Assembly (NCBI GenBank): GCA_021787845.1
Contig: JAJYLH010000044.1
Span: 1-51,551 of the forward strand
Origin: Myxococcales bacterium
Lineage (GTDB): Bacteria; Myxococcota; Myxococcia; Myxococcales; JAJYLH01
Direction: 5' to 3'
DNA length: 51,551 nt
Position 1 is the stretch's first letter. The number at the start of each line of letters is the position of its first letter. The notes under the pieces are model-generated. The model ran no database searches, had not been told where the DNA came from, and worked only from the letters and a program-made list of their open reading frames with translations. The position numbers and the translations under genes were made by a program. Of the stretch, positions 193 through 10,217 are shown one piece after another.

Positions 193-1002
193 CTAGATGT
201 GGAGCGCCTGGGCGAGCGCGGTCAGGCAGTAGTCGAGGGCCAGGATGCTGATGGCGCCGCCGACCACCGCGCGGGTGGTGGCGACGCCCACGCCCGCCGC
301 GCCGCCCTCGGCGTGGTAGCCGCGCTGGGCGGCGATGAGGCAGACGACGTACCCGAAAATCGCGGCTTTCACGAGGCCCTGGATGATGTCGGAGGGGTCG
401 GTGAACATCGGGATGCGCGCCTCGAAGTCGGCGCCGGAGAGGCCCGCCGACGCGACCGCGACGAGGTAGGCGCCGAAGAGCGCGACCGCGTTGAAGATGA
501 GCGTGAGGAGCGGCAGCATCACCATCCCGGCGATCGCGCGCGGCACGACGAGGTACTGCCGCGAGTCGACGGCCATCGTCTCCAGCGCGTCGATCTGCTC
601 GGTGACGCGCATGGTCCCGATTTCGGTAGCGATAGCGCTGCCGGTCCTCGCCGCGAGCATCAGGGCGGCGAACACCGGCGCGAGCTCGCGCGCGAGCGAG
701 AGCTCCACGGTCGCGCCGACCATGGTCTGCGCGTTGAAGAGGCCGAAGGCGTGCAGGCCCTGGAGCGAGAGCACCGCGCCGACGAAGAAGCCGGTGATGG
801 TGACGATGAAGAGCGAGCCGACGCCGACGGTCTCGAGCTGCTGGAGCAAGAGGCCCGCCCGCCACGGGCGCCGCAGCGCCATCAGCGGCACCTTCAGCGC
901 GAGAAGGAAGGTCGCGCCGAGGTCTTCGACCGTGCGCACGGTGCGGCGGCCGACGTCCTCGACCGCGAGCGAAAAGCCGGACTCGGCCGTCGAGGTCGCC
1001 AT
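193..1002 (-). CDS. MlaE-family ABC transporter permease
   Basis: The protein is 269 aa and about six hydrophobic segments fill it. It matches the MlaE/YrbE permease family, with the typical central region (TGSAIATEIGTMRVTEQIDAL) followed by hydrophobic helices. Family members work with an MlaF-type ATPase and an MCE-domain protein to move lipids between inner and outer membrane. The ATPase and MCE genes are probably beyond the left edge, since this gene reads leftwards. The start ATG (1000-1002) overlaps the stop of the alanine racemase gene by ATGA, so the two are translationally coupled. Family assignment is strong. The substrate, phospholipid in known members, is inferred. Confidence 0.88.
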   Translation of the reverse strand: MATSTAESGFSLAVEDVGRRTVRTVEDLGATFLLALKVPLMALRRPWRAGLLLQQLETVGVGSLFIVTITGFFVGAVLSLQGLHAFGLFNAQTMVGATVELSLARELAPVFAALMLAARTGSAIATEIGTMRVTEQIDALETMAVDSRQYLVVPRAIAGMVMLPLLTLIFNAVALFGAYLVAVASAGLSGADFEARIPMFTDPSDIIQGLVKAAIFGYVVCLIAAQRGYHAEGGAAGVGVATTRAVVGGAISILALDYCLTALAQALHI

Positions 1003-2186
1003 CAGCGGTAGACCCTCGGCACCCGCTTGCCGATGCCGCAGAGGATTTCGTAGCTCACGGTGTCCGCGTGGGTCGCGAGCTCGTCCGCGCCGATCGCCAC
1101 CGCGCCCTGGCGGCCGATGAGCACCACCTCGTCGCCGATGCTCGCGCCGGCGACGTGCGTCACGTCGAGGAGGCACGCGTCCATGCACACCCGGCCGACC
1201 AGCGGCGCGCGCCTTTCGCGCACCAGCATCTCCGCCCGGTTGGAGACCGCGCGCGGCAGCCCGTCCGCGTAGCCCACCGGGAGCGTCGCTAGTCGGCTCG
1301 GGCGGGTCGTCACGTAGGTCGCGCCGTAGCTGACCGGAAAGCCCGCCGGCACCTCTTTCAAGTGCGTGATGTGGGTGCGGAAGGTCAGCGCGGGCTTGAG
1401 GTCGGCCAGGCGCTTCAGGCGGGCAGCAGGAGCGATGCCGTAGAGCATCAGCCCCGGCCGGACCAGGTCCGCGTGCGTCTCCGGATGGTCGAGGAGGCTC
1501 GCCGAGTTCGCGAGGTGGCGCAGCTTCGGATGGAGGCCGCGAGCGCTCAAGCTCTGCGCGACCGCGTCGAACTTCGCGCGCTGCTCGGCCATCGAACGGT
1601 CGTCGCCCTGGTCGGCGAGCGCGAAGTGCGTCGCGAGCCCTTCCAGCTCCAGCGCCGGGTGGGCGCGGAGCGCGTCGAGGAACGCGCCCACCTCCTCGGG
1701 CAGCGCGCCGTAGCGGCCCATCCCGGTGTCGACCTTCAGGTGCACGCCGTAGTGCACAAGCCCTGCCGCCCTCACCGCGCGGGCGACCGCGGCGAGCTGG
1801 TCGGGCCGGTAGACCATCGGCGTCAGCCGGTGCTCGACCAGCGCGGCCGCCTCGTCCCCGGCGAGCCCGGAGAGCACGCAGATCGGCGCGACGAGACCGG
1901 CACGCCTGAGCTCCGCGCCCTCCTCGACGATGGCGACCCCGAGCCACGCCGCCCCGGCGCCGACGAACGCCCGCGCCGCCGGGACCGCTCCGTGCCCGTA
2001 GGCGTCCGCCTTGACCACCGCGAGAACCTGCACGGCGGGCCCGACCAGCCGCTTCGCTTCTTTCAGGTTGTGCGCGAGAGCGCCCAGGTCGACCTCCACC
2101 TCGGTCGGACGCAGGTGGAGCGGCGCTTCGTCGAGGGAGGGGACCGGGCGCGCGGCGGCGAGCGCTGGACGCAGGAGCTGGGTCAT
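1002..2186 (-). CDS. alr: Alanine racemase
   Basis: This 394-aa fold-III PLP enzyme interconverts L- and D-alanine for peptidoglycan. The PLP lysine is K59 in AVVKADAYGHG. The second catalytic residue is Y287 in VSYGAT. The C-terminal beta domain includes GRVCMDACLLDVT. The first 28 residues are a non-conserved leader before VEVDLGALAHNL, so the true start could be slightly downstream; no strong Shine-Dalgarno is visible at 2186. It is the first gene of a two-gene unit with the MlaE permease, both concerned with the envelope. Length is typical for the family. Confidence 0.93.
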   Translation of the reverse strand: MTQLLRPALAAARPVPSLDEAPLHLRPTEVEVDLGALAHNLKEAKRLVGPAVQVLAVVKADAYGHGAVPAARAFVGAGAAWLGVAIVEEGAELRRAGLVAPICVLSGLAGDEAAALVEHRLTPMVYRPDQLAAVARAVRAAGLVHYGVHLKVDTGMGRYGALPEEVGAFLDALRAHPALELEGLATHFALADQGDDRSMAEQRAKFDAVAQSLSARGLHPKLRHLANSASLLDHPETHADLVRPGLMLYGIAPAARLKRLADLKPALTFRTHITHLKEVPAGFPVSYGATYVTTRPSRLATLPVGYADGLPRAVSNRAEMLVRERRAPLVGRVCMDACLLDVTHVAGASIGDEVVLIGRQGAVAIGADELATHADTVSYEILCGIGKRVPRVYR

Positions 2187-2378
2187 CGTGTGCCGCTTTC
2201 GACTCTAAGGGAGCGCGAAAAGCCGTTCAAGAAAGCACCGTGCGAGCCCCTTGCAAGCGCCCGGCCTCCGCCCCGCGTCGAACGGCCGACGGCTCCTCCG
2301 ATCCGCCCGTCGGCCGCGCGCGGCCATGCTATGCAGGCGGCCCCGCCTCGAACGCGGGCCTGGTGCGGGAGCGTAGCC

Positions 2379-2786
2379 GTGGCTCAGAACCTGCGCGTCG
2401 GCGGCGAGATCGACGCCGTCTGCACGCGCTGCAAGATGCTCTTCGCCCACACGATTCTCGCGATGGTCGGGTCCCGGCCGGCCCGCGTCCAGTGCAACAC
2501 GTGTGGCGGGCAACACAACTACCGCGGCGCGCCCGACGCGCCATCGACGCGAAGCAGGAGCGCTTCCGCTGAGACGAAGCCCGACCGCCCGCGCGCCTCC
2601 TTCGAGCAGGCGATGGCGAGCAAGACCGGTCCGGGGAAGCGTTACACCCCGAAAGAGCGGTTCCTCCTGGACGAGGTGGTGCTTCACCCGACCTTCGGCC
2701 GCGGCTACGTCGCCGCGGTCCGCCAGGACAAGATCGACATCATCTTCCAGGTCGGAACGAAGACGCTCATCCACGGCCGGGGTTAG
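2379..2786 (+). CDS. Zinc-ribbon plus Tudor-like C-terminal domain protein, unknown function
   Basis: This protein of about 135 aa has an N-terminal zinc ribbon with Cys15, Cys18, Cys39 and Cys42 (CTRC, CNTC). A basic linker follows, then a C-terminal segment containing VLHPTFGRGYV and ending in a K-x-LIHG motif. That tail resembles the small Tudor-like domain at the end of UvrD/PcrA helicases, which binds RNA polymerase; this is a resemblance I see, not a proven homology. I chose the GTG at 2379 (GGGAG 7 nt upstream). An in-frame ATG at 2331 would add 16 non-conserved residues. The gene is transcribed away from alr and toward the DHH gene. Function unknown. Confidence 0.65.
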   Translation: MAQNLRVGGEIDAVCTRCKMLFAHTILAMVGSRPARVQCNTCGGQHNYRGAPDAPSTRSRSASAETKPDRPRASFEQAMASKTGPGKRYTPKERFLLDEVVLHPTFGRGYVAAVRQDKIDIIFQVGTKTLIHGRG

Positions 2787-2812
2787 CTCGCGTCGCGACG
2801 ACGTCCCGCTGC

Positions 2813-2855
2813 TCGGACCTGTCGGTCGGAGCGGACTGATCGGTCTGTTCGGCGG
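2813..2855. repeat. Degenerate copy of the 9-bp GATCGG iterated repeat
   Basis: The spacer between two converging genes contains tcggacc, gtcggtcgg, gcggactgatcgg and tctgttcgg. This is a decayed form of the tcggatcgg / accgatcgg units seen at 10259, 19382, 27082 and 35861. Confidence 0.5.
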
Positions 2856-2919
2856 GATGCCGCCCCGGCGCCAGGGGACCCGTCGAGGTGGCGCCGACGG
2901 GCGGTGCTGACGCTCTTTC

Positions 2920-3852
2920 TTACGCGAGCTCTGCCGCGCGAGCGAGGGCCGACAGCTTGGCGATCAACCCGTCCGCGTCCTTGGTCGGCCCGAACCGGAG
3001 GTCGTGCCGGCCGCGGTTCAGGTCGGCGAGCTCCTCGAGAGCGATGGCGCCATGGTACGTCGCTGCCGTGGCCCAGTAGCGCTTCTGGCTTCCTTCGAGG
3101 ATGAGCCCCACCGGCGCCGACTCCTGCAGCAGGGCGAGCAGGGCGAGACGCATCCGACCGTCGAGACGGGCGTCGAGCCGCACGACGCACACGCCCGGCG
3201 CTTCGAGCCGCTTCGCCGCCGCCAGGTTCTGCGCGCGCGCCCGTACGCTCTCGCCGGCGCGCGCGTACTGGTCCACCCGCGCCGCCAGCGACCCCTCCTC
3301 ACGCCCCGCCAGGAGCGATTCGGCCACCGCGCGATAGAAGACCGCGAACGCCGGCTCGTCCAGCTCGCTCGTGGCCTGCGACAGCGCTGCCGCCAGCCGC
3401 TCGCCGCGCGGCGACATCCGAAACCCGCGCCCGGGGCTGTCGGCGGCCCGGGCGTCTTCGTCGGCGCCCGGGTACGGCTCGACGCCGCCGGCGAGAAACC
3501 GCACCGCGCTCATCAGCCCGTCGAAGTCGTGGTGGGCGAGCACCCGCTCCACCGCGCCCGCGCGCGCGACCAGCTCCGGCGTCACGAGCTCCGGGCAGGC
3601 GGGAGCGGTGCGGCTAGGCACGAGGACGAACCGCGGGTCGCCCAGGTAGCGTGGCCACGCTTGCGCGTGCTCGTGGTGGTCGACCCACAGCTTGAGCCGC
3701 TCGCCCGCGCGCTCGATGAACGCGTGCGTCTGCTCGATGCCCTTGCCGCCGGCGAAGGCGACGTCCAGCACCACGAAAGCGCTGTCGGGAGGCGGCGGGA
3801 GCGCGTAGGGCTTGCGGACCACATCGAGGCGCGGGACGGTCGGCTGGCTCAT
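2920..3852 (-). CDS. DHH-type phosphoesterase-like protein with motifs in unusual order
   Basis: This 310-aa protein carries hallmarks of the DHH phosphoesterase superfamily. D30 ends a beta strand (FVVLD), DHH at 58-60 follows (LWVDHHEH), and HHDFDG lies at 107-112. In classical DHH enzymes (RecJ, NrnA, pyrophosphatase) the H-x-D-x-D motif precedes DHH, so here the order is reversed. The C-terminal 60 residues (GLILEGSQKRYWATAATYHGA) could be a DHHA1-like substrate domain. The likely activity is metal-dependent cleavage of a small nucleotide or oligonucleotide, by family only. A GAGG lies just before the ATG. An intrinsic-terminator hairpin ends 10 nt upstream of the start codon. Confidence 0.6.
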   Translation of the reverse strand: MSQPTVPRLDVVRKPYALPPPPDSAFVVLDVAFAGGKGIEQTHAFIERAGERLKLWVDHHEHAQAWPRYLGDPRFVLVPSRTAPACPELVTPELVARAGAVERVLAHHDFDGLMSAVRFLAGGVEPYPGADEDARAADSPGRGFRMSPRGERLAAALSQATSELDEPAFAVFYRAVAESLLAGREEGSLAARVDQYARAGESVRARAQNLAAAKRLEAPGVCVVRLDARLDGRMRLALLALLQESAPVGLILEGSQKRYWATAATYHGAIALEELADLNRGRHDLRFGPTKDADGLIAKLSALARAAELA

Positions 3853-3862
3853 CGTCGCCTCG

Positions 3863-3895
3863 AAAAAAAGCCCGCGAACCTCGCGGCCCGCGGGC
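3863..3895 (-). terminator. Rho-independent terminator or attenuator before the DHH gene
   Basis: On the minus strand GCCCGCG (3889-3895) pairs perfectly with CGCGGGC (3870-3876) around a 12-nt loop, followed by seven T (3863-3869). It may end the fructose bisphosphatase transcript, whose stop codon is 125 nt upstream. The T tract abuts the ribosome-binding site of the next gene, leaving no room for a promoter in between. Regulated read-through into the DHH gene is therefore plausible. Confidence 0.75.
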
Positions 3896-4020
3896 GGCGC
3901 CGGGACGAACTCGGCCGGAGGAGGGTGATCCCGCTGTCAGGAGGTGGCTCGTCCAGCGTGCTCGCGTCCGGCGGCCCATGTCCGGCCGGTCGGGAGCGCT
4001 GGACCCGCTCGCGGCGGCGA

Positions 4021-4986
4021 CTACCAGCCGTAGTTCGGCTTGCGCTCGAAATGGTGGTCGGTCTCCAGGTACCGGACGGTACCGCTCTTGGACCGCATGA
4101 CGACGGAGTGGGTCTTGGCGCCCCCGGCGAAGTAGCGCACGCCCTTCAGGAACTCCCCGCCGGTGACGCCGGTCGCCGCGAACATCACGTCGCCGTGCGC
4201 CAGCTCCTCCAGGTGCCAGATTCTCTCCACGTCGGCAATGCCCATCCTGGCGGCGCGCTCGATGTCCTCGGCGCCGCGGGGCTTGAGCCGGCCCTGGATA
4301 TCGCCGCCGCAGCTCCGGATGGCCGCCGCGGCCAGCACCCCCTCGGGAGCGCCGCCGATTCCCATCAGGACGTCCACGCCCGAGTCGTCGAAGCAGGTCG
4401 CGACCGCCGGCGCCAGGTCGCCGTCGCCGATGAGCTGGATGCGCGCGCCCGCCGTCCGCACCTCCTTGATCAGCCGCTCATGCCGCGGGCGATTGAGGAT
4501 GACCACCGTCAGGTCCTCGATGTAGACGCCCTTGGCGTCGGCGATGGCCCGAAGGTTGGCGGTAGGGCTCTTGCTCAGGTCGATGGCGCCCTTGGCCTTG
4601 GGCCCCACCGCGATCTTTTCCATGTAGGTGTCCGGCGCTTTCAGAAAGCCGCCGCGCTCGGCGATGGCGATGACGGAGAGCGCGTTCTGGCCGCCGGTCG
4701 CGCAGAGGGTGGTGCCCTCCAGCGGGTCGCAGGCGATGTCGACCTCGGTGTCGCCGTCGTGCCCGCGCCCGACTTTCTCCCCGAGGTAGAGCATCGGCGC
4801 CTCGTCGCGCTCGCCCTCGCCGATGACGATTTCGCCGCGGATGTTGACCCAGTCGAAGGCGCGGCGCATCGCGTCGACCGCGGCCTGGTCGGCGGCCACC
4901 TCGTCGCCCCGGCCCATCAGCCTGCCACACGAGAGCGCTGCTGCTTCCGTCACCCGCACGAACTCGAGAGCGAGGTTGCGTTCCAT
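4021..4986 (-). CDS. glpX: Class II fructose-1,6-bisphosphatase (GlpX type)
   Basis: This 321-aa enzyme hydrolyses fructose-1,6-bisphosphate to fructose-6-phosphate in gluconeogenesis. The lithium-sensitive phosphatase metal motif is VDIACDPLEGTT (D83, D87, E90-T92), and GEGERDEAPM supplies further metal ligands. Length is normal for GlpX. The ATG at 4984-4986 has a strong GGAGGA 4 nt upstream; an in-frame extension further upstream is not conserved. It is divergent from the SDR-fusion operon, with 287 nt between them. It probably stands alone, with the hairpin at 3863-3895 downstream. Confidence 0.93.
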   Translation of the reverse strand: MERNLALEFVRVTEAAALSCGRLMGRGDEVAADQAAVDAMRRAFDWVNIRGEIVIGEGERDEAPMLYLGEKVGRGHDGDTEVDIACDPLEGTTLCATGGQNALSVIAIAERGGFLKAPDTYMEKIAVGPKAKGAIDLSKSPTANLRAIADAKGVYIEDLTVVILNRPRHERLIKEVRTAGARIQLIGDGDLAPAVATCFDDSGVDVLMGIGGAPEGVLAAAAIRSCGGDIQGRLKPRGAEDIERAARMGIADVERIWHLEELAHGDVMFAATGVTGGEFLKGVRYFAGGAKTHSVVMRSKSGTVRYLETDHHFERKPNYGW

Positions 4987-5273: not shown

Positions 5274-7202
5274 ATGAACCTCCTCGTCATCGGCGGTGCC
5301 GGGTTTCCGGGGAACGCCACCGTTCAGGCGCTGCACGATGCTGGGCACACGGTGCGCGTCCTGCCCGGCCTCGAGTCGACTCCCGACCGGGCGGCAGAGC
5401 TGGCGCAGGCGCGGCAAGGGTCCGCCCTCTTCGACGCGACGATCGACTTCTCCGCGCGGTCGGCCGAGGACGTGCGCCTCGTGCGCGAGACCTGGGGCGC
5501 GCTCGCCGGCCACTACCTGCTCGTCTCGAGCTGCGAGGTCTACCCCAACGTCCCGCGCGACTCGCCCTGGCGCGCGGACGAGCTCCCGCTCGTCTCGGAC
5601 GAGGGGCTCGCCTCCCTGTCGCCGCGTGTGCGCGGGCTGCGCGCCGCCGAACGCGAGCTGTGCTTGAGCGCTTCCGGTCTGCCTTGGACCGTCGTCCGGC
5701 CGGCGGTCGTCGAGGGCTCCGCCGACCCCGCACCGCGGGCCGCCTGGTTCGTCTCCCGGGTTCTCGACGGCGGGCCGCTCGTGCTGCCTGCCGGGAGCGG
5801 TCTCGTCTACCGTCACGTCACCGCGGCCGATCTCGCCCGCGCGCTCGGGGTGACTGCCGGTCGGCCGGAGACGTTCTCCCGCGTCCTCCACGTGACAGGG
5901 GAAGGGCTTCTGTCCACCTGGGGTCACGCGGCGATGCTGATGGACGGCCTCGGCCGCCGGGTGCCGTTCGCCTACGTCCCCGCCGACGAATGGCAAGCGG
6001 CAGGGCTCACGCTCCCCTACGGCGACGTCGCGCACGCCGCGTTCCTCGAGCCGTCGCAGCTCTTGTTCGACCTGGGTTTCGAGCCCTCCGACGAGCTCGC
6101 GAGCGTCAACGAAATGGCCCGCGCGATCGCCCAGAGCGCGCCGCAGCCAAACCCCCACGCGCGAGCTGCCGAACGCCGGCTCGCCGACGAGACGCAGGCG
6201 CGAGCGTCCTCTTCGTCCAGCAAGCGAGCGCGAGCGGCTTCCCCGGGGCGGCAATGGAAGCTGACCGGAGAGCCCGGGGCGCCGGCGACCGTTCGCCTCG
6301 AGTGGTCCGACGAGATCCCACCGCTTCCGGCGCCGGTGCTCAGAACGAGGCAGGTGGCGCTCTCGGTCGCCGAGCGCTTGCTGCTCGCGGGCGAGCTGCC
6401 GGCGGACCCGGGGCGGCGCGTGCTCGGACACGACGCGCTGGTCGAGGTCGTCGAGCCGGGCACCAGCGGTCTCGTGGCCGGTTCGCTCCACCTGCCGCTC
6501 GCGCGGCTGCCGTGCGACGTGCCGACCTGCGCCTGGTGCCGGGAACCGGCGGCGCTCACGCTCGGCGTCGACACCGATGGCTACGGCGCACGGTTCACGA
6601 CCACTCCGGCAGAGCACCTGGTTCCCGTCTCCCCTGCCGCTGAGCCTTACGCCCTGCTCGCCGATCCGCTCGCGCTCCTGACCGAGGCTCTCGCCAAGGT
6701 GATCGAGAAGAACGCGGTCGTCTGGATCTGCGGCCGTTCGGTGGAGGCCGTGATCTGCGGCTGGCTGGCGCGCGACGCGGGCGCGTCGGTGCGGTCGGTC
6801 GAACGGCTGGCGCACGCCGGCGAGAACGGCATCGACCCGACCATCGCCATCGACGAGGCGGTGGCGGCGGTGCAGCAGGCGCGGATTCCGCCGCCGGGAG
6901 TCGCCATCGAGCTGACCGGCAGCGCTGACCTGGGCCGCCAGCTCGCGTCGGCACTCGCGCCGCGGGGTGTGCTGGTCGGGTGGCGAAAGCCCGCGTTCAT
7001 CGATCCGCGCGTCCGGTTCGTCGCCCTCCCACCCGCGGCGCCGTCGCGGCAGAGCCTCGCCCAGGCGCTGGAGAAGCTCGTCCGCTGGGCGCCGGTGCGC
7101 GACCTGTCGCGCCTGACCGGCCCCGCGGTGGCGCCCGACCTCTTCTGGGACGCGTTCGCCCCCGCGCCATTCTCGTTGCCCTATCTCGAGGAGCGGCCGT
7201 GA
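5274..7202 (+). CDS. SDR-MDR fusion: epimerase-like domain joined to an alcohol-dehydrogenase-like domain
   Basis: The protein is 642 aa. Residues 1 to about 250 form an extended SDR/NAD-epimerase-like Rossmann domain (GGAGFPG at 7-13). About 290-320 is an Ala/Ser/Arg linker. About 325-640 resembles medium-chain dehydrogenases: a GroES-like part with CDVPTCAWC and a Rossmann part beginning VVWICGRSVEAVICGW. The SDR catalytic pair YxxxK is absent; the equivalent position reads RVRGL (118-122), while the downstream paralogous domain has YARGK. The SDR half may therefore be structural or only nucleotide-binding. It overlaps the next gene by GTGA. Substrate unknown; coupled oxidation/reduction of a sugar or ketone is an inference. 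Confidence 0.75.
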   Translation: MNLLVIGGAGFPGNATVQALHDAGHTVRVLPGLESTPDRAAELAQARQGSALFDATIDFSARSAEDVRLVRETWGALAGHYLLVSSCEVYPNVPRDSPWRADELPLVSDEGLASLSPRVRGLRAAERELCLSASGLPWTVVRPAVVEGSADPAPRAAWFVSRVLDGGPLVLPAGSGLVYRHVTAADLARALGVTAGRPETFSRVLHVTGEGLLSTWGHAAMLMDGLGRRVPFAYVPADEWQAAGLTLPYGDVAHAAFLEPSQLLFDLGFEPSDELASVNEMARAIAQSAPQPNPHARAAERRLADETQARASSSSSKRARAASPGRQWKLTGEPGAPATVRLEWSDEIPPLPAPVLRTRQVALSVAERLLLAGELPADPGRRVLGHDALVEVVEPGTSGLVAGSLHLPLARLPCDVPTCAWCREPAALTLGVDTDGYGARFTTTPAEHLVPVSPAAEPYALLADPLALLTEALAKVIEKNAVVWICGRSVEAVICGWLARDAGASVRSVERLAHAGENGIDPTIAIDEAVAAVQQARIPPPGVAIELTGSADLGRQLASALAPRGVLVGWRKPAFIDPRVRFVALPPAAPSRQSLAQALEKLVRWAPVRDLSRLTGPAVAPDLFWDAFAPAPFSLPYLEERP

Positions 7203-9388
7203 GAGTCCTCGTCGTCGGCGGCAATCGTTTTCTCGGCCGCGAGGTGGTCCACCGCCTCCTCGCCGACGGTCACGAGGTCTCGGTCCTCGCCCTCGACGAG
7301 CTGCCCGGCGCCATCGCGCCGCACGCTCGCCTGCTGCGCGCCGACCGCAACGACCGCGCGAACCTTACGGCAACGCTCCAGGGCAGCTCGTTCGACGCGG
7401 TGGTCGACAACATCGCCTACGAGGCGCCGCAGGTGGAGCTGCTCGCCGACGTCCTGCGCGGGCGAATCGGCCGCTACGTCTTGACGAGCAGCGTCGACCT
7501 CTACGGCCTCTGGCACCCGCGGGCGATGCGCGAGAGCCGAGCGCCACTGGAGCCGTTCGACGTGAGCGGTACCGAGGGGCATGAACGCTACGCGCGGGGC
7601 AAACGCGCCTGCGAGCGGGCGCTCCCGGCCCTGGAGCTGCCCTGGACGGTCTTGCGGCCCTGCATCGTCGCCGGGGTGCACGACAACCTCTCGCCGCCGC
7701 CGGGCGCGCGCCACCTCGCCTTCGGGGACGAGTCGTCGCGCTCCCTCTTCTTGCCGGCGAGGGTCCTCGACGGCGGTCCCGTTCTTCTGCGCGACGACGA
7801 CGAAGGCGTGTTCAAGCTGGTCTGGGTCGCCGACGTCGCGCGTGCGGCGTCGATGGCGCTTTCCGACGCGCGGATGGAGCGGCGGGCGTTCAACGTCACC
7901 GGCGACGAGGTGTGGACGACGGGCAGGCTGGCGCGGGCGCTGGCGGTCGCCCAGGGACGCGCGCCCGACCTGGTGACGGTCAGCGCGCGGGAGCTGGAGG
8001 CGGCGGGGCTCGCCGACTACGAAGGCCCCTATGGGCGCGGGCCGTACTGGTCGGTGGCGGAGAACCTCGCGCTCAAGGCGCTCGGCTGGGAGCCGACGCC
8101 GGCGGCGCGGTGGCTCTCGACGCTCCTCGAGAGCGCTGCCGGTCCCGGGATGCGGCCGAGCTACGAGCGGCGGCTGACCGAAATCGCTCTCGCCTACCAG
8201 GTGCGGCGTCGGCGCCGGGCGGCGGAGGTCGTGCGACCGCTGCCGATCGACCCGCCGAGCCGAGCGTCGGGGGTGCTGCCCGGCCGCCTCGCGCCCGACG
8301 CGACGCGAGCCTTCGTCCAAAGCCATCCCGAGCTCGACCAGACGCACTGGCGCGCGTTCGGGAAGGCGCGGGTCTCGAGCATGGGCCTCGGCAACTGGAT
8401 GGGAGACCTCTCGCCGGAGACCGACGCGGCCTACGTCGACGCGGCCGTGCGCGCGGTGCTCGGCGGGCTCAACGTCCTCGACACCGCCATCAACTACCGG
8501 CACATGCAGAGCGAGCGCGCGGTGGGGCGGGCGCTTAGGCGGCTCGAATCGCTGGGCGTCGGGCGCTCGAGCGTGCTGGTCGCGACCAAGGGCGGCTTCA
8601 TCACCCACGACGCCGCCAGCGGACGCGCGCCGGCCGATTACCTCGAGCAGACGTACGTCCAGCGCGGCCTGCTCACTGGCGACGATCTGCGCCGCGGCCA
8701 CTCCATCGACCCGCGCTTCATCGAGGCGCAGATCGCGCAGAGCCTCGCAAACCTCGGCCTCTTCCACCTCGACGTCTACTTCCTCCACAACCCGGAGCTG
8801 GCGCTGGCGCACTTCGACCGGCCTTCGTTCGAACGATGCTTGGCGGAAACGTTCTCGGTTCTCGAGAGCGCTGTCGCTGCCGGTCGGATCGGCTGCTACG
8901 GTCTCGCCACCTGGGAGGGCTTTCGGGTCCCGGAAGGGCATCCGTCCTACTTGCCGCTGGCACGGCTGGTCGAGCTGGCCCAGAACGCCTGCGGCAGCGC
9001 GGACCACCACCTGCGGGCCATCGAGCTGCCGCTGAACCGGGCGCTGCCGGAAGCGGCGCGGGAGACGAACCAGCCGCTCGGCGCCGCGCGGATGAGCGCC
9101 CTGGACGCGGCGCAGGAGCTCGGCCTCGCCGTCTTCACCAGCGCGACGATGCGCCAGGGGGCGCTCGAGCCGGCGGCGAGCGAGGACGGCCTGTCGGCGG
9201 CGCAGGCGGCCGCACAGCTCTCCCGCAGCGCTCCTGGAGTCACGGCCGCGCTCGTGGGCACCCGGCGGCTGGCTCACGTGGACGAGCTCTTGGCGCTCGC
9301 CGGGCGATCGGGGCTCGGGGAAGCGGCGGCGCGCGAGCGATGGGGAGCGAGCCTGCCCCCGCCGCTCGCGGCGACGGCGGCCGGCTGA
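7199..9388 (+). CDS. SDR-AKR fusion: epimerase-like domain joined to an aldo-keto reductase
   Basis: The protein is 729 aa and starts at a GTG overlapping the previous stop. Residues 1 to about 330 are an extended SDR with GGNRFLG (7-13), a serine-containing TSS (96-98), and intact Y131/K135 (YARGK). Residues about 390-725 are an aldo-keto reductase with a complete tetrad: Asp and Tyr in NVLDTAINYRH, Lys in LVATKGG, and His in YFLHNPE. Its SDR half resembles that of the preceding protein (shared LPWTV.RP), suggesting duplication followed by fusion to different reductases. The two are surely co-translated. Pathway unknown; nothing nearby names a substrate. Confidence 0.8.
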   Translation: MRVLVVGGNRFLGREVVHRLLADGHEVSVLALDELPGAIAPHARLLRADRNDRANLTATLQGSSFDAVVDNIAYEAPQVELLADVLRGRIGRYVLTSSVDLYGLWHPRAMRESRAPLEPFDVSGTEGHERYARGKRACERALPALELPWTVLRPCIVAGVHDNLSPPPGARHLAFGDESSRSLFLPARVLDGGPVLLRDDDEGVFKLVWVADVARAASMALSDARMERRAFNVTGDEVWTTGRLARALAVAQGRAPDLVTVSARELEAAGLADYEGPYGRGPYWSVAENLALKALGWEPTPAARWLSTLLESAAGPGMRPSYERRLTEIALAYQVRRRRRAAEVVRPLPIDPPSRASGVLPGRLAPDATRAFVQSHPELDQTHWRAFGKARVSSMGLGNWMGDLSPETDAAYVDAAVRAVLGGLNVLDTAINYRHMQSERAVGRALRRLESLGVGRSSVLVATKGGFITHDAASGRAPADYLEQTYVQRGLLTGDDLRRGHSIDPRFIEAQIAQSLANLGLFHLDVYFLHNPELALAHFDRPSFERCLAETFSVLESAVAAGRIGCYGLATWEGFRVPEGHPSYLPLARLVELAQNACGSADHHLRAIELPLNRALPEAARETNQPLGAARMSALDAAQELGLAVFTSATMRQGALEPAASEDGLSAAQAAAQLSRSAPGVTAALVGTRRLAHVDELLALAGRSGLGEAAARERWGASLPPPLAATAAG

Positions 9389-9425: not shown

Positions 9426-10217
9426 GTGATCTGCCCCAACTGCCAGGCCCTGGTCGCGGACGACGCGACCTTCTGTGACTCGTGCAACGCCATCCTCGAC
9501 GCCTCGTTTCTCGGCGACGGCATCACCAACGAGGCGCCCGCGCCCGACCAGAACAAGACCCGCGTCAAGGCGGACCCCAACCAGACCCGCGTCCGTCCGG
9601 CGGATCCGAACGCGACCCGCGTCCGCCCGGCTGATCCGAACGCGACCCGGGTGCGCAGCGCGCCTGAGCCCAAGCGTCCGGTCGTGGAAGACGACGAGGA
9701 GGAGAAGCGGTCCGTCCTCGCGGGCGCCGCGCCCCCGCCGCAGGCCGCCCAGGCCTTCGAAGACCTCGCGAAGCAGTTTCGGAGCCTCGCTTTCAGCGAG
9801 AAGCTCGCCACCGTCGGCGGGCTCGCCCTGCTTCTGTCGCTCGGCCTGCCCTGGTCGTGGGCCAGGGTCGACGGAGGGACCACGAGCGCCATCGGGCTCG
9901 TTACGGGCGCCTGGCCGCTCGCGGTCCTGGCGCTCGCGATGCTGGTCGGCATCTTCTTGTGGCGCCATCCGAAAGCGCGGCCGCATCGGGACCTCGTCCT
10001 GGGAGGGTGCGCGGGCCTGAGCCTGCTCAGCTTCCTGGGCGCGCTCGCGTTCTTGCAGACGGTGGGCCGGGTGGTGACCCACGACGTCGGCGGCCGGCTC
10101 GACTCGACCGCCACCGCCGGCGCCGCGTTCGGCGTCTACCTCGGACTCGCCGGCGCCGCCGCGATGATGGTCGGTACCGTGCTGAGCTACCTCGGCCGGG
10201 AGAGGCTGCCGGAGTAG
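9426..10217 (+). CDS. Zinc-ribbon membrane protein with four TRV repeats
   Basis: This 263-aa protein starts at GTG with GGAGG 9 nt upstream. An N-terminal zinc ribbon has Cys3, Cys6, Cys17 and Cys20. Then comes an array in which T-R-V recurs exactly every nine residues (T45, T54, T63, T72, in DPNxTRV), an acidic-basic linker, and about four TM helices from residue 130 on. Short Thr-containing repeats in soluble tails of membrane proteins can be kinase targets read by FHA domains; that is speculation. It follows the SDR-AKR gene by 37 nt and may be its third operon member, although it has its own good ribosome-binding site. Function unknown. Confidence 0.75.
   Translation: MICPNCQALVADDATFCDSCNAILDASFLGDGITNEAPAPDQNKTRVKADPNQTRVRPADPNATRVRPADPNATRVRSAPEPKRPVVEDDEEEKRSVLAGAAPPPQAAQAFEDLAKQFRSLAFSEKLATVGGLALLLSLGLPWSWARVDGGTTSAIGLVTGAWPLAVLALAMLVGIFLWRHPKARPHRDLVLGGCAGLSLLSFLGALAFLQTVGRVVTHDVGGRLDSTATAGAAFGVYLGLAGAAAMMVGTVLSYLGRERLPE

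Follow-up and report, generated by a model that had tools for sequence, protein, structure and literature searches.

A rare gene pair coupling a degenerate SDR-MDR fusion to an apparently intact SDR-AKR fusion in a Myxococcales bacterium

Gene layout and domain architecture

We analyzed a stretch of 51,551 nucleotides from a Myxococcales bacterium (contig JAJYLH010000044.1; hereafter the window), in which two adjacent genes on the forward strand each join a short-chain dehydrogenase/reductase (SDR) domain to a different reductase fold. Gene 1 (positions 5274..7202; 642 aa) is a single open frame with an ATG start and encodes an SDR domain (SDR1) followed by a medium-chain dehydrogenase/reductase (MDR) domain. 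Gene 2 (7199..9388; 729 aa) encodes a second SDR domain (SDR2) followed by an aldo-keto reductase (AKR) domain. The longest open reading frame would begin at a GTG farther upstream, but the start of gene 2 is assigned to the GTG at 7199. The stop codon of gene 1 and the start codon of gene 2 share 4 nt (GTGA, 7199..7202). Homologous frames were found at eight further loci, and a 4-nt overlap was present in all nine copies, as ATGA in the relatives. The two coupled fusion genes proposed in the initial annotation of the window were therefore confirmed by the overlap and by domains kept across the family. An annotation artefact, which that annotation had named as a possible refutation of the fusions, and an assembly artefact were ruled out by the same open frames and overlap in the eight further copies.

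Pfam detected an Epimerase domain at the N terminus of both proteins (SDR1, approximately residues 1-295, 5274..6158, 7.8e-6; SDR2, 7199..8263, 1.2e-13) and Aldo_ket_red in the C-terminal half of gene 2 (8306..9385, 1e-20). The latter half matched PDB entry 7utf with Z 25.9 over 275 residues, indicating the AKR barrel fold. Pfam support for an MDR domain in gene 1 (approximately residues 323-642; 6240..7199) was weak (ADH_zinc_N, E 0.019). When a gene 1 family profile was compared with the PDB, the best matches were archaeal MDR glucose dehydrogenases (3e-7), and this sequence match makes the MDR assignment firm. The AlphaFold models were of low confidence (mean pLDDT 50.6 and 62.2) and served for domain assignment only. 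On the low-confidence model of gene 1, SDR matches covered approximately residues 1-229 (best Z 14.8 over 170 residues) and the glucose dehydrogenase 2cdb matched within approximately residues 397-634 (Z 12.8 over 186 residues).

Residue loss in gene 1 and retention in gene 2

SDR1 and SDR2 of the window are 31% identical in our alignment, in which RVRGL of SDR1 (Arg118 to Leu122; 5625..5639) is aligned to YARGK of SDR2 (7589..7603), the site of the catalytic Tyr131 and Lys135. Tyr and Lys were missing at both SDR1 positions in all nine copies; the positions are occupied by R and L in the window, and by A, E or S and by A in the other copies. These losses agree with the earlier reading of RVRGL as the mark of an SDR that probably cannot act as a normal one. 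A Tyr-Lys pair displaced within SDR1, which would have contradicted that reading, was ruled out on the SDR1/SDR2 alignment, where none was found elsewhere. Further, the Gly-rich motif of SDR1 is complete only in the window (GGAGFPG) and degraded in the other eight copies, from which approximately 25 residues of the Rossmann domain are absent. In contrast, SDR2 retained Tyr131 and Lys135 in all nine copies, as well as a Gly-rich motif, GGNRxxG (GGNRFLG in the window), of the same variant as in stand-alone relatives.

We compared the nine MDR halves with five intact glucose-dehydrogenase-type MDRs from related genomes. The catalytic-zinc Cys of VGVCGTD was replaced by Ser, Thr, Asn or Leu across the nine copies (Ser364 in the window; 6363..6365). 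GHE of the intact enzymes was changed to GHD or GHN, the His being retained, and the Glu of TEPL to Asp. At the structural zinc site, the first three Cys were invariant and the fourth was lost with a short deletion. Further, GAGPVG of the intact enzymes was replaced in all nine copies by GR[ST]xEA, after a deletion of approximately 15 residues (GRSVEA from Gly487 in the window, at the position of the GxGxxG nucleotide-binding motif; 6732..6749). In the glucose dehydrogenase of S. solfataricus, the zinc ligands are Cys39 and His66 at the catalytic site and Cys93, 96, 99 and 107 at the structural site (PMC8689651). That enzyme (2cdb) represents the family ancestral to the MDR half of gene 1; in comparison, gene 1 lacks the catalytic-zinc Cys as well as two other ligand positions, and neither the fourth structural Cys nor GxGxxG is kept. 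The MDR half is degenerate as well as SDR1, which the initial annotation had missed. Thus, only SDR2 and the AKR half, two of the four domains, retain ordinary redox residues.

In the AKR half, the tetrad Asp428, Tyr433, Lys464 and His530 was conserved in each of the eight copies that extend far enough to include it. Stand-alone AKRs of haloarchaea, Rokubacteria, Acidobacteria and others belong to the same subfamily (approximately 40-47% identity). They are unfused, whereas the fused AKRs formed one separate clade with support 100 in a quick tree of 93 AKRs. With both halves looking intact, gene 2 is predicted to encode an active enzyme.

Other relatives of the AKR half occur in different settings. 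With the L091 gene 2 protein as query, a relative of 36% identity was found on a Nostoc plasmid, where it lies within a non-ribosomal peptide synthetase cluster (L189, 5926-7131). In Haloarcula (L111, 3780-4667 and 5935-7059), an epimerase-like protein is followed, two genes on, by a stand-alone AKR, and the intervening gene resembles, by eye, a DHH-type phosphoesterase. The neighbors of the stand-alone AKRs had no theme in common.

Distribution, origin and neighborhood of the pair

The family was found with a profile of the AKR half, run against a collection in which each species was represented by a single genome; most matches were stand-alone AKRs. The whole pair was present at six of the seven best loci, belonging to one Zetaproteobacterium, two Sulfuritalea and three Magnetococcales. 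A second copy in one of the Sulfuritalea genomes and a fourth copy in the Magnetococcia were found in addition, giving nine copies in eight genomes with the window included. Seven of the eight further copies are complete in both genes, and the remaining one (L178) ends at a contig end inside gene 2. The search for the same architecture in databases, which the initial annotation had suggested, thus yielded these eight copies. A scan of the genome collection with gene 1 as query gave no match.

Few genomes carry the SDR-MDR / SDR-AKR family. Among 195 genomes from the phylum of the window, one had full-length gene 2. For gene 1, the counts were 1 in 399 genomes (order of Sulfuritalea), 2 in 299 (family of Sulfuritalea), 1 in 78 (class of the Zetaproteobacterium) and 4 in 48 (class of the Magnetococcales). 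Among 398 genomes drawn from the phylum of the Magnetococcales, five carried gene 1, and exactly those five carried gene 2. Close relatives in the order of the window were limited to stand-alone AKRs (approximately 40-47%) or generic SDRs (approximately 35%), and plasmids gave partial generic matches only. No description of this architecture turned up in our literature searches.

In a tree of the SDR domains (the row L178_SDR1 was disregarded), the SDR1 copies grouped together, as did the SDR2 copies, and the window copy was the earliest branch in either clade; the clades themselves were sisters with support of 96/89. This topology points to a single SDR that was duplicated before the lineages parted. 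Two long branches join at this node, and we therefore regard the duplication as likely rather than certain. The gene pair forms one unit, probably of single origin.

Between close copies, the two halves of gene 1 (SDR1 and MDR) had dN/dS ratios of 0.04-0.23, and SDR2 and the AKR half fell in the same range. The gene 1 frame was open throughout in all nine copies. All four domains are under purifying selection, the degenerate halves as strongly as the active ones. A decaying pseudogene was ruled out by the dN/dS of gene 1, and the low ratios together with nine open frames indicate that the degenerate chain is retained for some role.

The genes surrounding the pair vary from group to group. In the window, its neighbors are a glpX-type fructose-bisphosphatase and, directly 3' of gene 2, a zinc-ribbon membrane protein (9426-10217) with the short repeated stretch DPNATRVRPA; they are not common to the relatives. 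In the Zetaproteobacterium (L182) and in the second copy of one Sulfuritalea genome (L177), the pair is preceded by a barrel-like exported protein (62% identity between both) and a long Thr-rich repetitive exported protein, whose N-terminus is 63% identical; these upstream genes lie at 237-3865 and 3268-4967, respectively. The presence of this cassette in two classes suggests transfer between them. The barrel-like protein was not found in the genome of the window. In three Magnetococcales genomes (L178, L179 and L180), the pair lies divergently beside what appears, by eye, to be a polyhydroxybutyrate cluster, and a DUF3472 exported protein is encoded 3' of the pair in L095 and L179. A scan for promoters and terminators gave no signal above chance, and no function could be read from the neighbor genes of the window and its relatives.

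A possible dead partner of an active oxidoreductase

On balance, and by a modest preference, we favor the reading that gene 1 encodes a pseudoenzyme in both of its domains, which would be the dedicated non-catalytic partner of an active oxidoreductase encoded by gene 2. Dead and live SDR paralogues co-occur under selection here, as they do in pseudoenzyme-enzyme pairs. Gene 2 would encode an active two-domain oxidoreductase consisting of an extended SDR and an AKR. The two chains would probably pair via their SDR domains, as extended SDRs dimerize; since SDR1 and SDR2 are paralogues, this would be the simplest mechanism. As a scaffold or regulator, the dead chain would stabilize, position or control the active site of SDR2, and its MDR half would supply a surface for docking or for ligand binding. 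The active chain would probably catalyze NAD(P)H-linked steps, with a small carbonyl, sugar or polyol as substrate. For several of the closest relatives of solved structure, the substrates are sugars or nucleotide sugars, which is a hint only.

The initial annotation had offered two interpretations of the locus, which fared differently. Its suggestion of a regulatory pseudoenzyme gains support and is favored, given the degeneracy of both halves of gene 1. The other suggestion, that three reductase folds take part in a channelled multi-step conversion, loses support, as the residues for ordinary redox chemistry are kept only in SDR2 and the AKR half.

Comparable pairs have been described. BbsCD, a heterotetrameric SDR of anaerobic toluene degradation, is presented in the title of its report (doi 10.1111/febs.16216, title as cited in PMC10818641) as having inactive pseudoenzyme subunits, and its structure (PDB 7pcs) was among the structure matches of the gene 1 model. 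BbsCD likewise consists of two related SDR chains from neighboring genes, one of them described as an inactive pseudoenzyme subunit; its chains are single-domain, whereas the SDRs of gene 1 and gene 2 are of the extended type and each is fused to another reductase fold. Moreover, in gene 1 the loss of activity extends to the other fold, its MDR half. Ketoreductases of polyketide synthases combine a catalytic SDR half with a structural one, from which NADPH-binding sites are missing, and in some modules an enoylreductase is inserted between them (PMC11228615). The likeness extends to this MDR-type enoylreductase, but there the domains lie within one megasynthase chain, the enoylreductase is active and no AKR is present. 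In trypanosomes, the live enzyme S-adenosylmethionine decarboxylase is activated by prozyme, its dead paralogue (PMC5201418). Prozyme resembles gene 1 as a catalytically dead paralogue devoted to a live partner; its fold and chemistry are unrelated, and activation was measured there and is proposed here. By analogy, these systems make the mechanism possible and are not proof of it for gene 1 and gene 2, which are probably a pseudoenzyme-enzyme pair of a kind already known.

Several points weigh against a dead partner. We infer the complex of the two chains from their sequences, and the structural models are of low confidence. Cofactor binding can outlive the loss of a motif: SDR1 of the window retains GGAGFPG, and an active glucose dehydrogenase (3wic) carries GSGSEA where GxGxxG is expected. 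Further, co-occurrence and translational coupling would also fit two consecutive enzymes of a pathway. Gene 1 could then have gained a new, non-redox catalysis, with its other conserved residues forming a different active site. Long invariant stretches in gene 1, such as WGHAAM in SDR1 and the tail GPAxxxDxxWDAxxPxPFxLPxLE of the MDR half, and purifying selection like that on an enzyme are consistent with this explanation, as is an operon of pathway neighbors. However, no known non-redox MDR or SDR of such a kind was present among the Pfam and profile matches. Chemistry would have been lost from two independent folds in one chain, for which a shift to a binding role is simpler, and we consider a new activity unlikely.

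Zinc-free MDR reductases exist. On this general precedent, and with the overall fold match of the MDR half retained, three working reductases might be envisaged, in which the MDR half binds NAD(P) and reduces without zinc while SDR2 and the AKR half perform further steps. The replacement of GxGxxG by GR[ST]xEA in every copy, after the deletion described above, makes this improbable, and the pattern of structural-zinc Cys argues for descent from a zinc enzyme whose ligands were later lost. Finally, a role of gene 1 in sensing a nucleotide or metabolite and signaling to gene 2 would accord with the Gly-rich motif in SDR1 of the window, the three invariant structural Cys of the MDR half and the precedent of MAT2B, an NADP-binding SDR protein that is the partner subunit of another enzyme (PMC3793261), but it is very unlikely overall, since the eroded nucleotide site of SDR1 speaks against nucleotide sensing in the other eight copies.

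Returning to the dead partner of an active enzyme, we tentatively extend it, with distinctly less confidence, to a two-chain complex in which a whole two-domain oxidoreductase, with its SDR and its MDR, now serves another oxidoreductase of two domains as a non-catalytic subunit; as a guess, the versions in Zetaproteobacteria and Sulfuritalea may help to modify the Thr-rich exported protein encoded immediately upstream. Automatic annotation would label gene 1 a reductase. The best-known examples of dead partners of live enzymes have a single domain. In this family, the copies stand at differing stages of decay, the nucleotide motif of SDR1 being still present in the window copy and lost from the others. 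With nine such copies beside a fully retained active paralogue, one could test what portions a dead reductase preserves for binding its partner.

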